5,370 bases of DNA from Muribaculaceae bacterium (GTDB lineage: Bacteria; Bacteroidota; Bacteroidia; Bacteroidales; Muribaculaceae): contig JAIDTS010000053.1 in NCBI GenBank assembly GCA_029060585.1, positions 1 through 5,370 on the forward strand. The letters are read 5' to 3'. Positions 1 through 5,370 of the stretch are shown in pieces. The position numbers were made by a program, and so were the translations under genes. Position 1 is the first letter of the stretch. Each line of letters starts with the position of its first letter. A model generated the notes under the pieces. The model was not told the DNA's origin, searched no databases, and saw only the letters and a list, made by a program, of their open reading frames with translations.

Positions 1-2639
1 GCGTTTGTGGCCACTATGTCGATTTCAGCCACCTCGCGGAGACCGGCGACGGAATTCGCCCCCTTTCCGGGAACAGACAGCATATCAAACACCCAACTGT
101 CGGTTGAGTCCTTCCCCATCACGAGCCAACGCGACTTGAAAGAGGGAGTTGCGGCACTGTCGGTGTAAAGTGCGCGCAACGCCTCGAGAGCGGGGAGAGT
201 ATCAGAAGAGGCGGAGGGGAATCGCACCAGATTAAAGTTTCCAAGCGCTATGTCGCTCTTCCGGGCCATCATCCTCAATCCGTCGGCATCGTAACGCGGC
301 ATCATCAGCTGACAGACATACCAGTCACTTCCGAGATAGGCGTTGCATACTACGGTCACATCGCGGCGAACGCCCATCACCTCCTGAGCGAACCACAACG
401 GGAAGATATAGTTGTCGCCATCCACAAAAAGAATTGCATCATCATCGAGCGACTCAAGGAGATTAGAGGCGTAGTCGAGAGTAGCGGAGCGGCCGCTACG
501 GTCATGGTCGTCCCAGTTCTGCGCGAGCATCCAAACCGGAACGGCAAAGACCGCGCATAGCGCCAGTCCCCTCGCCCATCGGGCACGAATGGAGCGCAGG
601 AGCATGAGCATTCCGAATGATATCCAGAGGGCGAAAGTCCAAAAACTACCCATAAATGAATAGTCGCGTTCGCGAGGTTCACCGGGCGACTGATTGAGAT
701 AGAACACGATGGCGAGTCCGGTCATAAGGAACAGCACGAGCGACACCCATGCAGTCCAGCGCATACGCATCGCACTACGTGACCTTCCGGAGCCTACGAA
801 AAGCCATATTATACCCAATATACCAACCAGGAAGGGCACGCACCAATAGACATTATGCCCCTTATTATCCTTTCCGAGCTCAGGAGGGAGCTTGGATTGG
901 TCGCCAAGCATAAGATCGTCGAGCGGCGGAATGCCGGTAATGAAGTTGCCGTGATCTATCTCTCCGGTGGAAGGCCGGTCGTTCTGGCGTCCGGAATAGT
1001 TCCACATGAGATAGCGGAGATACATATAGCCGATCTGATATACAGCCATATACGTAAACGACTGCTTATAGGAAGGCCTGAGACCGTACCTCACGATAGG
1101 CGTTCCATCCGCATCACGCCTCGGCACAGCATGGCCGACGGAATCGAACGCCTCTGAGATGCGCACCTGCACCATACTTGCGGAGTCCATCCCGGTCCAG
1201 TCGCGATATGCAGCAAGGTCGCCAGGCGACGAAGCATAAATCCGGGGTAACCACATGTCGAGTTCCGGAGTATAGCGGAGTTCGGAACGAATACCCGTCA
1301 CTACGTAACCTTTCTGCGAATCACTCTCGGAAACACGACGATTAAGCTCCCTGTCGGCATCTGTAAGAAAGCGGGACCGCGACGGAATACGGCCATCTTG
1401 GACCATAGGACGCATCTCGCGGCCTTTCACCTTCAGGGCATTCCACGAATAATCGCGCAGTGTATCGCCCTGCGGACCGACAGAGACGTTCTCGAGACGC
1501 ATCGCCCTGCTATAAGGAGTGCGTCCATAAAATAAAGGATTACTGCCGTATTGACGGCGGTCGAGATAGTCGGCAAGCCTGAACACATCTGAAGGATTAC
1601 CCTCATTCACGGGAGGATTCGCCCAAGCACGGATAGGAATCAATATATATACGGAGAAACCGAGCATAACAGCCGCAAGACTCCAGAAAGCAGCTGACGC
1701 CCCGAGGGATCTACGGCCTATAAGCAATGCCGCCACTACTACCGCAAAGAGAGCGAGAATCCAGAAAGAGAGGGCACCCGACCAATAAGGGAGGCCTAAG
1801 GAATTGACGGCAATCAGGTCGGCCCATGCAGCAACGGCTACGGAGCCGGGCATAAGACCTTTGAGGATAAGCACGACAACGGCACAGCCGATCAGAAACG
1901 CCGCCACAATGCGACCGACACCGGCCTTCTTTCCGGATCTAATGCGAAAAGCCATAATCATCGCCACCGCGGGAAGCGCGAGAAGATTAAGCTGATGCAC
2001 CCCTATAGACAATCCTATCACATACATAAGGGCCACAAGCCAGCGCATACGGGCAGCCCTACTGAATTGAAAGGCCCATCTGAGTGCCATCCAGACCGTA
2101 AGGGCTGAGAGGAACAGCGACATGGCGTAGACCTCGGCCTCCACCGCACTATACCATGCGGAGTCTGACCATGCAAAGCAAAGCGATCCCGCGAGAGAAG
2201 CCACGGATATGGCGGCGGAGCGCCATAGTCTGTCACGACGCGGAGGAAAAATCCAACGCATCAACGATATGCCGACAGAGCATAGAATCATGACAGCGAG
2301 GGCAGTGAAAAGCCCTGACATCATATTGACCACTCGCACCTGAAGCGCGGGATCGGAGAAAAAACAGGATACGAAGCGATGCGTCAAAGCCCAGCCCGGA
2401 TTGCCCGGGGGATGCCCGATCTCGAGACGCAGGGCCGTAAGAAGATATTCCGGGCAATCCCAGTAGGATGCGCCGGGATCGACAGTTAGCCAATAGACAA
2501 TGAGGGATGCGAGAAAGGCGAGCCAGGGAACATAATTGAGAATTGAGAATTGAGAATTGAGAATTATCCGAGATATCCCTGAAGCACACGGATGCACGAG
2601 CCGTGCGTCCCTACTGATTTGTCTAATCGGAGCCTTCAT
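1..2639 (-). CDS. GT117 / DUF2723 multi-pass membrane protein, C-terminus cut by window edge
   Basis: Frame-by-frame reading shows no stop from the ATG at 2639-2637 to the left edge, giving 879 residues without the C-terminus. Family motifs (PF11028, annotated as glycosyltransferase family 117 or protein O-mannosyl-transferase-like) appear in order: WDCPEY at 60-65, GHPPGNPGW at 75-83, WYSAVEAEVYA near 162-172, GVHQLNLL at 213-220, GRQND at 550-554, PRERDY at 655-660 and DGDNYIFPLW at 740-749. About a dozen hydrophobic segments lie between residues 38 and 705, with a large hydrophilic loop near 340-595 and a soluble C-terminal part from about 706. The likely role is a membrane-embedded glycosyl transferase acting at the cytoplasmic membrane; donor and acceptor are unknown. 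The start overlaps the SDR stop by 4 bp and is the only in-frame ATG before the conserved motifs. Residues from about 10 to 35 are encoded by a palindrome and a heptamer array and look unlike the family. Family membership is near certain; the exact N-terminus is less so. Confidence 0.93.
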   Translation of the reverse strand, partial: MKAPIRQISRDARLVHPCASGISRIILNSQFSILNYVPWLAFLASLIVYWLTVDPGASYWDCPEYLLTALRLEIGHPPGNPGWALTHRFVSCFFSDPALQVRVVNMMSGLFTALAVMILCSVGISLMRWIFPPRRDRLWRSAAISVASLAGSLCFAWSDSAWYSAVEAEVYAMSLFLSALTVWMALRWAFQFSRAARMRWLVALMYVIGLSIGVHQLNLLALPAVAMIMAFRIRSGKKAGVGRIVAAFLIGCAVVVLILKGLMPGSVAVAAWADLIAVNSLGLPYWSGALSFWILALFAVVVAALLIGRRSLGASAAFWSLAAVMLGFSVYILIPIRAWANPPVNEGNPSDVFRLADYLDRRQYGSNPLFYGRTPYSRAMRLENVSVGPQGDTLRDYSWNALKVKGREMRPMVQDGRIPSRSRFLTDADRELNRRVSESDSQKGYVVTGIRSELRYTPELDMWLPRIYASSPGDLAAYRDWTGMDSASMVQVRISEAFDSVGHAVPRRDADGTPIVRYGLRPSYKQSFTYMAVYQIGYMYLRYLMWNYSGRQNDRPSTGEIDHGNFITGIPPLDDLMLGDQSKLPPELGKDNKGHNVYWCVPFLVGILGIIWLFVGSGRSRSAMRMRWTAWVSLVLFLMTGLAIVFYLNQSPGEPRERDYSFMGSFWTFALWISFGMLMLLRSIRARWARGLALCAVFAVPVWMLAQNWDDHDRSGRSATLDYASNLLESLDDDAILFVDGDNYIFPLWFAQEVMGVRRDVTVVCNAYLGSDWYVCQLMMPRYDADGLRMMARKSDIALGNFNLVRFPSASSDTLPALEALRALYTDSAATPSFKSRWLVMGKDSTDSWVFDMLSVPGKGANSVAGLREVAEIDIVATN
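2534..2565. repeat. Heptamer tandem array (AATTGAG, 4.6 copies) in the 5' part of the GT117 gene
   Basis: Four perfect copies of the 7-mer AATTGAG plus AATT are seen on the + strand (CTCAATT on the coding strand). It lies about 75 bp inside the GT117 reading frame and is translated as ILNSQFSILN without a stop. It ends directly before the first membrane segment of the protein. The unit length is not a multiple of three, so any copy-number change other than by three units shifts the downstream frame. Confidence 0.93.
2590..2610. repeat. Palindromic repeat (GGATGCACG-AGC-CGTGCGTCC)
   Basis: Two 9-bp arms separated by 3 bp pair with one mismatch. The sequence sits inside the first 20 codons of the GT117 gene, 24 bp from the heptamer array. 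Similar GGACGCACG...CGTGCGTCC palindromes are, from memory, scattered between genes in Bacteroidales genomes; this was not checked. It encodes the RDARLVHP part of the unusual N-terminal extension. It is too short and lacks the T-run expected of a terminator on the coding strand. Confidence 0.7.
2636..2639 (-). promoter_or_regulatory. ATGA stop/start overlap between SDR and GT117 genes
   Basis: The SDR stop TGA (2638-2636) shares bases with the GT117 start ATG (2639-2637). Such ATGA junctions usually indicate translational coupling on a shared mRNA. It is the main reason for choosing this start, since no purine-rich ribosome site precedes it and no other in-frame ATG occurs before the conserved family motifs. 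Confidence 0.75.
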
Positions 2640-3433
2640 TTGACGATGCCTTTGTCGAGAAGACGACGCTTCACCTGCATACGAACCCATGTAGGAGTGA
2701 TTCCGACGAAAAAGATGGCGAGGCGATTGATGAAGCCGTTGACATACTGCTTTTTTCCCTTGAGCATCGCCTTGACGGCCTTCTCGGCGAAACGGTCGGG
2801 TTTCTCAACGGCTCCGAGAGCCACGGCAAGGCGCATAAGATTGTCGGGCAATCCGAAGAGTGAAGTAGCGATTCCCCCGGGGGCGGCTACGGTAGCAGAA
2901 GCGCCGTAGTCCTTAAGTTCATAATGGAGCGAACGGGTGAAGACACGGATATAGGCTTTGGTTGAGGCATACATCGCAAGGCCGGGCATTGGCATCCAGC
3001 AGGACATCGATGACATATTGAGGATATGTCCGGAGCCTCGCTCCTTAAACCTCCTTGCGAAGAAGAGAGAGAGCATAGTCGTAGCCCGCACGTGAAGGTC
3101 GATGAAGCACTCTATCTTCACATCAGGTATGTCCACAAGTTCACGGAAACTGAATATGCCGGCGTTGTTGACGATGAACTCAGGCTCCACATCTTCAGCA
3201 CTGAGAAACACCTCGAGCTTCGAAACTGCGTCGGCCTGTGTGAGGTCGAGAGTGAACGGAAGAGCCCTCACGCCGAATACATCTTCTATAGACGCAGCGG
3301 CCTTACGCAGCGGATCGACAGTGACGCTCACCATCACAAGTGAACAACCACGACGTGCAAGCGCACGGCAGAACTCAATGCCGATACCTCCATCGGCACC
3401 GGTCACCACAGCCCACTTTCCCGTTAATTCCAT
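2636..3433 (-). CDS. SDR-family NAD(P)-dependent oxidoreductase, candidate hydroxysteroid dehydrogenase
   Basis: This 265-residue protein is a classical short-chain dehydrogenase of normal length. The Rossmann dinucleotide motif TGADGGIG is at 11-18, Asp63 follows beta-3 (TLDLT), NNAG is at 89-92, the catalytic Ser is S142 (NMSSMS region), YASTK gives Tyr155 and Lys159, and PGG follows at 185-187. The Asn that normally completes the Asn-Ser-Tyr-Lys tetrad aligns with His114 in the segment IDLHVRA. There is no acidic residue at the end of beta-2 (LVMVSVT), so NAD versus NADP preference is not clear. The C-terminal 35 residues include a hydrophobic stretch (RLAIFFVGITPTWV) followed by many Lys/Arg, which may place it at the membrane. 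Lying after a 5-alpha-reductase-like gene and an OYE gene, it is a good candidate for reducing or oxidising a steroid C3 (or C7, C12, C17) oxygen; 3beta-HSDH is the best guess by analogy. The family call is firm, the substrate inferred. Confidence 0.92.
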   Translation of the reverse strand: MELTGKWAVVTGADGGIGIEFCRALARRGCSLVMVSVTVDPLRKAAASIEDVFGVRALPFTLDLTQADAVSKLEVFLSAEDVEPEFIVNNAGIFSFRELVDIPDVKIECFIDLHVRATTMLSLFFARRFKERGSGHILNMSSMSCWMPMPGLAMYASTKAYIRVFTRSLHYELKDYGASATVAAPGGIATSLFGLPDNLMRLAVALGAVEKPDRFAEKAVKAMLKGKKQYVNGFINRLAIFFVGITPTWVRMQVKRRLLDKGIVK

Positions 3434-3467
3434 AAAGATTAGAGATTAAATATTAAAGATTAAATAT
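3433..3467. repeat. Degenerate heptamer array (TAAAGAT-type, 5 units) touching the SDR start codon
   Basis: Five consecutive 7-bp units (TAAAGAT, TAGAGAT, TAAATAT, TAAAGAT, TAAATAT on the + strand) fill the leader of the SDR gene. On the coding strand they read ATATTTA / ATCTTTA and run into the ATG. The AT-rich tract takes the place where a ribosome binding site would be; no Shine-Dalgarno sequence is present, as is common in Bacteroidota. An effect on SDR translation is plausible but not shown. Confidence 0.85.
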
Positions 3468-3473
3468 TTTGCT

Positions 3474-3536
3474 CTTAGCTCTTAACTCTTCACCCTTAAC
3501 TCTTCACCCTTAACTCTTCACTCTTCACTCTTAATC
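3474..3536. repeat. Degenerate heptamer array (CTTMACY-type, 9 units) over the 3' end of the OYE gene
   Basis: Nine consecutive 7-bp units of CTTAACT, CTTCACC, CTTCACT and close variants are seen on the + strand (AGTTAAG, GGTGAAG, AGTGAAG on the coding strand). Two unit types alternate over part of its length. It covers the last codons of the OYE gene, so IKSEE and the TGA stop are made of repeat units, and it fills the gap as far as the second array at 3433-3467. It has no stable hairpin and does not look like a terminator. Confidence 0.9.
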
Positions 3537-4747
3537 CTTTCTATTTCCTTGCGGATCTTTGGAGGGAGGTCGGAGAGTGTGCAATGGCAGGCCATCTCAC
3601 GGCTATACATGCGTGCGATGCAGTAGTTGACGTGCTCGCAACCACAGTGATGTGCTGCTTCGCGGGCAAGACGGTTTATGAAATCCGGCTCACGGAGCAA
3701 GGCGCGTCCCATCTGCACGAAGTCAAATCCCTCAGAGAGCACTTTTTCCATGCCCTCGCCGTCGACAACTCCCCCGACGTAGATCAAAGGAAGCTTCAGC
3801 TCGGAGCGAAAGCGTTTCGCATCCTCAAGGAAATAAAGCGGTTTGAAGGGTTCTTTGGGAATCATGTATTTTCCCACCATGCGGACGCCGTATTTCAGCC
3901 ACCACTGCTTCATGTAGTAGGTCATGCTGTAGAGCGGCATCTCGCCACGCATCACATACATAGGAGCCTTGCTGACGAAACCGCCGCTAAGCACAATCGC
4001 ATGCGCTCCCAGACGCTCAATCTCCTTCGCAACGGTGATGCAATCGTCAATCTCGAGACCACCCTTGAAGCCATCGCGCATGTTGGTCTTCACAATCACG
4101 CCCATATCGCTTCCGGCAGCCTTCAACACCTCTTCCAGACACATGCGCATGAAGCGCATGCGGGAATCGAGACTGCCTCCGAATTCGTCGCGTCGATGAT
4201 TGGTATAAGGCGAGAGGAACTGGGATATGAGATAGCCATGTCCGGCGTGCACCTCCACGCAGTCGAATCCGGCATCGCGGGCAGTGCGCACGGCATCGCC
4301 GAAGTCGCGGGCCATCTGCTGAAGCTCATCCTTGCGGAGTCCGCGCACGATGGTAGGCGAATATAGGTTGAAGCCGGTAGATGCTCCGACCGGTATACCG
4401 CCGGCCGTCTTTATATGGGTCATATTTCCGCAATGGCCTATCTGAATGGAAGCCTTGGCTCCACGCTCATGGATGCCGTCGGTGATCTCGCGGAGGGAAC
4501 CCACTATCTCCGGACGGAGCCAAAGCTGCGTCTCGAATGAAAGGGCCGAACGGTTGATTCCGGCATAGGCGAGAGTGGTCATGCCGACTCCTCCCTCCGC
4601 TACGCTCCAATGGTAGTCGCGCAGCATTTCCGTGGGATTATTGTCTTTTCCCATGCCTTCGAAAGCCGCGCTGCGGATGGCACGGTTGCGCAACTCCACG
4701 GGTCCTATCCTGCCGGGAGTGAAGAGTCTGTCGAGTGAAGTCACCAT
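3518..4747 (-). CDS. OYE-type NADH:flavin oxidoreductase, candidate 3-oxo-delta4-steroid 5-beta-reductase
   Basis: This 409-residue FMN TIM-barrel ene-reductase (PF00724) has LFTPGRIGPVELRNR at 8-22, EGGVGM at 51-56, QIGHCG at 102-107, VEVHAGHGYL at 164-173 (His167/His170 pair and Tyr172, the usual proton-donor position), FLSPYTNHRRDEFGGS at 177-192, VKTNMRDG at 219-226, VGGV at 324-327 and GRALLREPDF at 347-356 (flavin phosphate loop). It stops after the barrel, so it lacks the C-terminal FAD/NAD(P) domains of BaiCD/BaiH and 2,4-dienoyl-CoA reductase (about 640-670 residues). It keeps a Cys-rich tail: C368, C370, C376, C387 and C389. A Met- and aromatic-rich insertion lies near 261-305. The ATG overlaps the upstream reductase by 7 bp and is close to the expected family N-terminus. 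The last few residues are encoded by a heptamer array. Context points to reduction of an enone in a steroid ring (delta4, or delta1/delta6); other enones, such as those of dietary compounds, remain possible. Confidence 0.93.
   Translation of the reverse strand: MVTSLDRLFTPGRIGPVELRNRAIRSAAFEGMGKDNNPTEMLRDYHWSVAEGGVGMTTLAYAGINRSALSFETQLWLRPEIVGSLREITDGIHERGAKASIQIGHCGNMTHIKTAGGIPVGASTGFNLYSPTIVRGLRKDELQQMARDFGDAVRTARDAGFDCVEVHAGHGYLISQFLSPYTNHRRDEFGGSLDSRMRFMRMCLEEVLKAAGSDMGVIVKTNMRDGFKGGLEIDDCITVAKEIERLGAHAIVLSGGFVSKAPMYVMRGEMPLYSMTYYMKQWWLKYGVRMVGKYMIPKEPFKPLYFLEDAKRFRSELKLPLIYVGGVVDGEGMEKVLSEGFDFVQMGRALLREPDFINRLAREAAHHCGCEHVNYCIARMYSREMACHCTLSDLPPKIRKEIERIKSEE
4741..4747 (-). promoter_or_regulatory. 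7-bp overlap (ATGGTGA) between the 5-alpha-reductase-like and OYE genes
   Basis: The OYE start ATG (4747-4745) lies just before the TGA stop (4743-4741) of the upstream reductase. The overlap implies that the two reductases are made from the same transcript by coupled translation, in roughly linked amounts. Confidence 0.75.
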
Positions 4748-5370
4748 ATGAATGGAATTATGTATTTTCTATTTAGTTTAGTGAATTCCTCGCCAAATTC
4801 CCGCACATAACGGTCATGGAGCGACCTGGCACGCGGAGCGAGGTTGGCAAATGTCCAAAGAGCAAAAATGACACCAGGAAGCGACCATGTGAGCACCGCA
4901 TATCCCACCCATTCGGTAAACTCACCGAAATAGTTGGCAGAAGTCACATAGCGGAACATACCACCTTTAGGGATGTAATGATTGTGGTCGCCGGGACGGC
5001 GGAGATGGCGTATGATATGGTCGGAATGCAGATTGATCAGCATACCGGCAAAGAAAACAACCGTACCGACGAGGAACTTCAGGCTATAGAGCCAGGAAGG
5101 GGGATATGCGTCGACAGGAGAGACATAAAAGAGCCATCCACCGATCAGATATGCGTTGACGACATTGAACACGCACCCCATCAGGATAATCGCGAGGGGC
5201 ATACGGCTTTTCCCCTTAATGAGAAGAGGAAATACAAACGATCGCTGGAAATAGTGGAGCATGAAGAGCGACGCCATAGCGATAAGCGCAGTCTCACCCC
5301 GGCGCGAAGAGCATGCCCAGAGGATGGCCATGCATATGAATACCGGAGCCTCCATCAAGATCCAGCCCAG
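4741..5370 (-). CDS. Steroid 5-alpha-reductase-like membrane protein (3-oxo-5-alpha-steroid 4-dehydrogenase family), 5' end cut
   Basis: The frame is open to the right edge, so 209 residues are visible and the start lies outside; a full protein of about 250 residues is expected. The visible part begins at the family motif LGWILMEAP, where Glu7 aligns with Glu57 of human SRD5A2, and Tyr40 in LHYFQRSFVFPLL aligns with SRD5A2 Tyr91, the residue pair that contacts the steroid C3 ketone. The NADPH-binding C-terminal region is intact: INLHSD at 112-117, YIPKGGMFRYVTSANYFGE at 132-150, EW at 153-154, NLAPRA at 176-181, LHDRYV at 184-189 and RKYIIPFIW at the end. Hydrophobic segments near 8-19, 27-46, 58-82, 97-113 and 150-175 fit a polytopic inner-membrane enzyme. 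The expected reaction is NADPH-dependent reduction of a delta4-3-keto steroid to the 5-alpha product. It overlaps the OYE gene by 7 bp, implying co-translation. A related fatty enoyl or DUF1295-type reductase is the main alternative, made less likely by the conserved Glu/Tyr pair and the neighbours. Confidence 0.9.
   Translation of the reverse strand: MGWILMEAPVFICMAILWACSSRRGETALIAMASLFMLHYFQRSFVFPLLIKGKSRMPLAIILMGCVFNVVNAYLIGGWLFYVSPVDAYPPSWLYSLKFLVGTVVFFAGMLINLHSDHIIRHLRRPGDHNHYIPKGGMFRYVTSANYFGEFTEWVGYAVLTWSLPGVIFALWTFANLAPRARSLHDRYVREFGEEFTKLNRKYIIPFIW

Follow-up and report, generated by a model that had tools for sequence, protein, structure and literature searches.

A Muribaculaceae gene trio of 5alpha-reductase, ene-reductase and short-chain dehydrogenase as a probable variant of the Bacteroidota 5beta-to-5alpha steroid module

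The DNA analysed here, a 5,370-nucleotide stretch of contig JAIDTS010000053.1 from a Muribaculaceae bacterium (assembly GCA_029060585.1; the whole stretch is called the window), carries four consecutive genes on the minus strand: an SRD5A-type 5alpha-reductase (5AR), an ene-reductase of the old yellow enzyme (OYE) type, a short-chain dehydrogenase (SDR) that we call SDR1, and a TMEM260-like gene. A preliminary description had proposed three adjacent co-directional genes for a 5AR, an OYE and an SDR in a Bacteroidales host. The open reading frames (ORFs) and Pfam matches bore out their kind, strand and place, and the closest named proteins come from Muribaculaceae and Bacteroidales metagenome-assembled genomes (MAGs), with nearest identities of 85-87% for the 5AR and 95% for the OYE. 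In window coordinates, the 5AR and OYE genes overlap by 7 bases, and 84 bases separate OYE from SDR1. The features of the trio are as follows.

4741..5370, minus strand: 5AR, SRD5A-type 3-oxo-5alpha-steroid 4-dehydrogenase, C-terminal 209 aa (PF02544, 2.6e-45; N-terminus outside the window)
5350..5355, minus strand: Met-Glu pair of the 5AR, equivalent to human Gln56-Glu57 (human SRD5A2 alignment)
5251..5253, minus strand: Tyr of the 5AR, equivalent to human Tyr91 (human SRD5A2 alignment)
3518..4747, minus strand: short OYE-type ene-reductase, 409 aa, candidate 5beta-reductase (PF00724; 61% identical to the OYE of the Parabacteroides merdae locus)
4232..4249, minus strand: OYE active-site stretch HAGHGY (H167, H170, Y172), kept in 136/136 rows reaching these residues
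3587..3640, minus strand: OYE C-terminal cysteines C370, C376 and C387, kept in 135/135 rows reaching these residues
2636..3433, minus strand: SDR1, classical SDR, 265 aa, candidate hydroxysteroid dehydrogenase (PF00106; tree; AlphaFold2 model)
3380..3403, minus strand: SDR1 cofactor motif TGADGGIG (from the translation; T11, G12, G16 and G18 invariant, 32/32)
2957..3010, minus strand: SDR1 catalytic S142, Y155 and K159 (invariant, 32/32)

The 5AR scored 154.5 bits against Pfam Steroid_dh (cut-off 22.6) and matched PbSRD5A (7c83) at 153 bits and human SRD5A2 (7bw1) at 147 bits, compared with 50 bits for an enoyl-CoA reductase. Over 209 aa its identity to human SRD5A2 is 41%, and it shares with both of these enzymes the Pfam family, about this level of identity and the catalytic Glu and Tyr. 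About 50 N-terminal residues are absent because the gene runs past the window end (close relatives of full length have 259 aa, the part in the window 209). The OYE scored 182 bits against Pfam Oxidored_FMN, and its AlphaFold2 model, which has predicted local distance difference test values below 50 at residues 67-70, 107-131, 226-228, 257-268 and 372-390, found its best structural matches among FMN/Fe-S OYE enzymes; C370, C376 and C387 are a possible remnant of an Fe-S site. BaiCD and NamA were tried as identities for this protein and rejected with scores under their cut-offs (BaiCD, NF041087, 181 of 825 bits). At 409 aa, against about 640 aa for BaiCD (a 642-position model), it is too short to accommodate the C-terminal nucleotide domain. 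The window OYE differs from the clostridial BaiCD and ci2350-type 5beta-reductases further in its three conserved C-terminal Cys. An in-frame stop, one in each case, was seen in the OYE match of G102, G261, G204, G101, G109 and G278. The SDR scored 124 bits against Pfam adh_short and has the classical hallmarks of this family (TGxxxGxG, NAG, Ser-Tyr-Lys); among 32 members N90 is nearly invariant and the other named residues are invariant.

To place the trio among its relatives, contigs were scanned with the OYE alignment, which gave at least 583 confirmed relatives; the best 80, ranked by similarity to the window OYE and therefore a biased set, were used as named loci. At 69/80 of these, 5AR, OYE and SDR1 follow one another in this order on one strand, so the arrangement is not due to chance. 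The other 11 comprise four contigs that stop just past the OYE, one that starts at the OYE, and six with OYE-SDR1 but no adjacent 5AR; in 6/6 of the latter a 5AR is present elsewhere in the genome. Six pairs of loci with identical 5AR DNA over the compared stretch were retained in the locus and residue counts.

A second survey covered 393 genomes, sampled evenly across the order to which a Barnesiella genome belongs, with thresholds of E<=1e-70 for the 5AR and E<=1e-120 for the OYE. The 5AR clade was found in 51, the OYE in 57 and both in 48; of the 342 genomes counted as lacking the clade, 43 have a 5AR relative that is more distant (identity to the query about 33-47% for the best matches), and 15 gave no more than weak matches. 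The OYE was therefore present in 48/51 genomes with the 5AR clade and in 9/342 without it (Fisher p ~1e-48, uncorrected for shared ancestry), and 8/9 of the latter carry a distant 5AR relative. The OYE adjoins the 5AR on the same strand at 42/53 5AR places, with at most 63 bases between them in 37/42 and at most 600 in the others. Across 153 loci, those outside the window and Parabacteroides groups include 20 with the 5AR alone and 12 with an OYE and no SDR1 or SDR2 match, some of them cut by contig ends (SDR2 is the second SDR family described below). At eight fetched loci of the distant 5AR clade (L133-L140), no adjacent OYE of this clade was found; in three of the eight, a remote relative of the OYE (38-41%) lies at a distance of about 9-10 kb. 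The 5ARs of this distant Bacteroidales clade, about 40-46% identical, have Met at the Q56 position and keep H231 in 7/8.

The preliminary description had likened the trio to the gene set of P. merdae, where a cluster of 5AR, 5beta-reductase (5BR) and predicted 3beta-hydroxysteroid dehydrogenase (3beta-HSDH), reportedly described by Sato and colleagues in 2021, is said to be the pathway to isoallolithocholic acid (isoalloLCA). For comparison, 38 genomes of a genus taken as Parabacteroides were sampled, 20 of which have a 5AR; named relatives of one of these 5ARs come from Parabacteroides (77%) and Tannerellaceae. The complete genome G408 of this genus (4,377,447 bases) encodes a protein that matches PDB 6d7j/6dxu over 810 residues with no visible mismatch except at the tag end. 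We take these structures to be the P. merdae beta-glucuronidase, and treat G408 as P. merdae on that basis; two further glycosidases, used as possible species markers for this genome, gave no close match. G408 has one 5AR gene, the first of a 5AR-OYE-SDR cluster (locus L141). Between the window and L141 the 5AR is 59.3% identical over 209 aa and the OYE 61.3% over 400 aa, and both 5ARs fall within a 53-row clade with 99% support (tree of 61/148 rows, hand-picked for spread; the OYE tree, chosen likewise, used 50/137). The gene set at L141 agrees with the description of the P. merdae cluster in the available excerpt of PMC10382948, where the 5AR shares a cluster with an NADH:flavin oxidoreductase and a predicted 3beta-HSDH, and where allolithocholic acid derivatives are no longer formed once the 5AR is disrupted. 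The resemblance therefore stands for the first two genes, which are orthologous in the two clusters and equal in order and strand, with the same Met-Glu-Tyr site in the 5AR. It fails for the third gene, as the SDR is only 20.5% identical over 205 aa and belongs to a separate family.

This second family is SDR2. In a tree of 62 of the 167 collected SDRs, hand-picked for spread, the two families separate with 100% support on very long stems: SDR1 holds the window protein and others from Muribaculaceae, Barnesiella and further genomes, and SDR2 holds those of Parabacteroides, Barnesiella and part of the Muribaculaceae. Compared SDR2 proteins are about 20-26% identical to the window SDR1. The families also differ in their NCBIfam leanings (SDR1 toward mycolate-reductase-like models and PRK09072, SDR2 toward PRK06197-type models), with no model over its cut-off among the matches listed. 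Three cluster versions were observed. Among the named loci, 42/80 are 5AR-OYE-SDR1 and 27/80 are 5AR-OYE-SDR1-SDR2, and clusters of the window clade have SDR1 only; at the Parabacteroides-genus loci (L106 and L141-L153, representing 14 of that genus's 20 5AR-bearing genomes), 12/14 are 5AR-OYE-SDR2 without SDR1. The remaining two are L153, which ends within the OYE, and L144 (genome G402, 6.8 Mb), whose 5AR stands in a fetched stretch of 15 kb that shows neither an OYE nor an SDR partner. A Barnesiella SDR2 query (E<=1e-15) found no SDR2 in 14 genomes with SDR2-less clusters, including 7/7 of those closest to the window, some of which may be incomplete as MAGs; the same query recovered SDR2 in all three tested genomes with a clustered copy. 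In the reverse direction, a Barnesiella SDR1 query against six Parabacteroides-genus genomes returned generic SDRs only (best 67.6 bits, 25-30% identity).

Attempts to name the window SDR from models led to no assignment. In NCBIfam, no cut-off was reached among the best 25 of 207 matching families, the top being a mycolate reductase at 126.7 of 380 bits, and the 7beta-HSDH model (NF050024) gave 74.7 of 300 bits; by structure, the top rows for its AlphaFold2 model and the FabG-type rows lay at most 1 Z unit apart. As the third gene of the window is not the P. merdae 3beta-HSDH, the C3 stereochemistry of P. merdae is not transferable to it, and the 3beta-HSDH reading is not supported. We regard SDR1 instead as a second candidate hydroxysteroid dehydrogenase that is not orthologous to the Parabacteroides SDR. 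OYE-SDR1 pairs without an adjoining 5AR were seen at L046, L051, L054, L060, L063, L067 and L132; six of these seven genomes have a 5AR elsewhere, and G272 (L132, Parabacteroides genus) has none. The proper partner of SDR1 may be the OYE and not the 5AR. A contig titled Pseudoflavonifractor sp. (L052) has a 5AR-OYE-SDR1-SDR2 cluster of Bacteroidales type, grouping with those of Heminiphilus and Barnesiella; mislabelling of the MAG is a more probable cause than transfer.

Considering these comparisons together, the trio is probably a Muribaculaceae-type variant of the Bacteroidota 5beta-to-5alpha steroid A/B-ring (bile-acid/steroid) module. The preliminary description had spoken of three activities needed to saturate a 3-oxo-delta4 steroid, which is loose, since 5AR and 5BR yield opposite C5 configurations; the trio is better read as a 5beta-to-5alpha switch with a C3 redox step. 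As to the OYE and SDR1 steps, and their substrate, activity and direction in this organism, we infer the following route. The OYE flavoenzyme, in the 5BR role, would interconvert 3-oxo-5beta and 3-oxo-delta4 steroids, and the membrane-bound SRD5A-type 5AR would then use NADPH to reduce the delta4 bond to the flat 3-oxo-5alpha form. SDR1 would reduce the C3 ketone, or oxidise a C3 alcohol to supply the OYE step. Overall, flat 5alpha (allo) products would arise from bent secondary bile acids of the 5beta type or from delta4-3-keto steroids, a route that corresponds to what has been named the indirect pathway of Bacteroidetes (PMC9645264, in the part available). Lineages with both SDR1 and SDR2 could epimerise C3, and a single epimer would come from the window lineage, in which SDR1 has no SDR2 beside it. 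That product may be allo or isoallo, because SDR1 belongs to a different SDR family from that of the Parabacteroides cluster. A bolder version, which we put forward tentatively and at somewhat less than an even chance, is that SDR1 is a so far unrecognised second hydroxysteroid dehydrogenase family, that the three operon versions (SDR1, SDR2, SDR1+SDR2) set a 3alpha, a 3beta or an interconvertible alcohol, that SDR1+SDR2 clusters are complete C3 epimerases, and that the bile acids made by the window lineage would be of the allo, not the isoallo, form.

Several observations weigh against a steroid module at this locus. The Gln-Glu-Tyr (Q-E-Y) signature of SRD5A enzymes, in which the changes Q56A and Q56L abolished human SRD5A2 activity (PMC7815742, in the part available), reads Met-Glu-Tyr in the window 5AR; of the NADPH-binding residues N160, D164, R171, N193, E197, R227, H231 and Y235, 7/8 are kept, and H231 is Leu. 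In both positions the window protein departs from PbSRD5A and human SRD5A2. Met occupies the Gln position in 146/146 5AR rows, P. merdae included, with the Glu and Tyr kept, and the P. merdae 5AR has Ile at position 231, which weakens the objection, though it still stands. In addition, the SDR lies below the threshold of a hydroxysteroid dehydrogenase model (7beta-HSDH, as above), the OYE matches neither BaiCD nor, as judged by motif counting, the published residue pattern of clostridial steroid reductases, the co-occurrence statistic ignores shared ancestry, and 11/53 5AR places have no adjacent OYE.

Other explanations agree with parts of these data. SDR1 could have come, through convergence or a very old divergence, to act as a 3beta-HSDH in the role of SDR2, so that isoalloLCA would be made as in P. 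merdae. SDR1 does occupy the slot of SDR2 immediately after the OYE, and isoalloLCA production by P. merdae, Odoribacter laneus and Bacteroides dorei (PMC10382948, available excerpt) means that more than one lineage makes it. However, the low identity between the families, and the presence of both beside the 5AR in the 27 four-gene clusters, suggest distinct roles rather than pure substitution, and we hold this explanation to be rather unlikely. Instead of bile acids, the natural substrates could also be delta4-3-keto steroids from the host or the diet (progesterone, testosterone, cholestenone), which would suit a 5AR of the SRD5A1/2 type with its similarity to the human enzyme, and a clostridial OYE-type 5beta-reductase, ci2350, works on progesterone (PMC12238238). 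Against this, the genetic evidence met for this 5AR clade, that from P. merdae in the available excerpt of PMC10382948, concerns bile acids only. The OYE residues are indecisive: ci2350-type progesterone reductases have Asn before and Ser four residues after the catalytic Tyr (N166 and S171), bile-acid reductases mostly have Y/S and E (PMC12238238), and the window OYE, by motif counting without an alignment to ci2350, has G171 and Q176 flanking Y172, which fits neither pattern and led us to reject a substrate call from these residues. Such non-bile-acid substrates seem to us improbable as the natural ones.

A role on an endogenous lipid (polyprenal- or dolichal-like, or an enoyl lipid), with steroid conversion as a side activity, we consider very unlikely. 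It would accord with the leaning of the partner SDR2 toward PRK06197-type models, presumably a retinol-dehydrogenase-like group, with an acyl-CoA ligase-like gene after the cluster at 9/80 loci, with a TMEM260-like gene nearby at 23/80, and with the wide distribution of the set. But the 5AR is much nearer to SRD5A2 and PbSRD5A than to enoyl-CoA reductase, and the absence of its clade from 342/393 genomes of the order argues against a core lipid function. The ligase-like gene (long-chain type, about 610 aa) was noted by eye at L007, L017, L023, L025, L029, L034, L041, L044 and L065, as was an AMP-ligase-like ORF near the 5AR in L129.

Much of the variant 5beta-to-5alpha module has precedent. 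Reports of 3-oxo-5alpha-steroid 4-dehydrogenase genes from gut Bacteroidota go back to 2018 or earlier (PMC6069880). The genes of chicken-gut Bacteroidetes in that source resemble the window 5AR in enzyme name and in wide spread among gut Bacteroidota, a likeness by name with the sequences not compared, and differ in that its available excerpt describes no OYE or SDR partners. The P. merdae cluster is known as well. SDR1 as a regular partner is apparently new: in the literature searched, which left subscription papers uncovered and included some sources in part, we found no description of an SDR1-type cluster or of the SDR1 family in this position. Muribaculaceae are dominant in rodent guts. 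If many of them carry the module with a different C3 enzyme, producers of flat bile acids and their epimers would be wider than the P. merdae marker gene shows. Surveys that need a P. merdae-type SDR would miss such genomes, and surveys of the 5AR only could assign the wrong end product. This bears on host effects, as isoalloLCA promotes regulatory T cells (PMC11271093) and inhibits Gram-positive pathogens (PMC10382948), according to the parts of these sources available.

The fourth gene of the window lies downstream of SDR1 and has a relative inside the fetched stretch at the 23 named loci counted above:

ORF 3-2690, minus strand: TMEM260-like membrane protein (PF11028, 163 bits)

Its ORF overlaps SDR1 by 55 bases. 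Tandem repeats of seven bases (AATTGAG, TAAAGAT and CTCTTAA) occur at the gene junctions, at window positions 2534-2565, 3433-3468 and 3472-3539. The last OYE residues are encoded by one such array, and another sits inside the apparent start of the TMEM260-like ORF, so the true start of this gene is probably further in.

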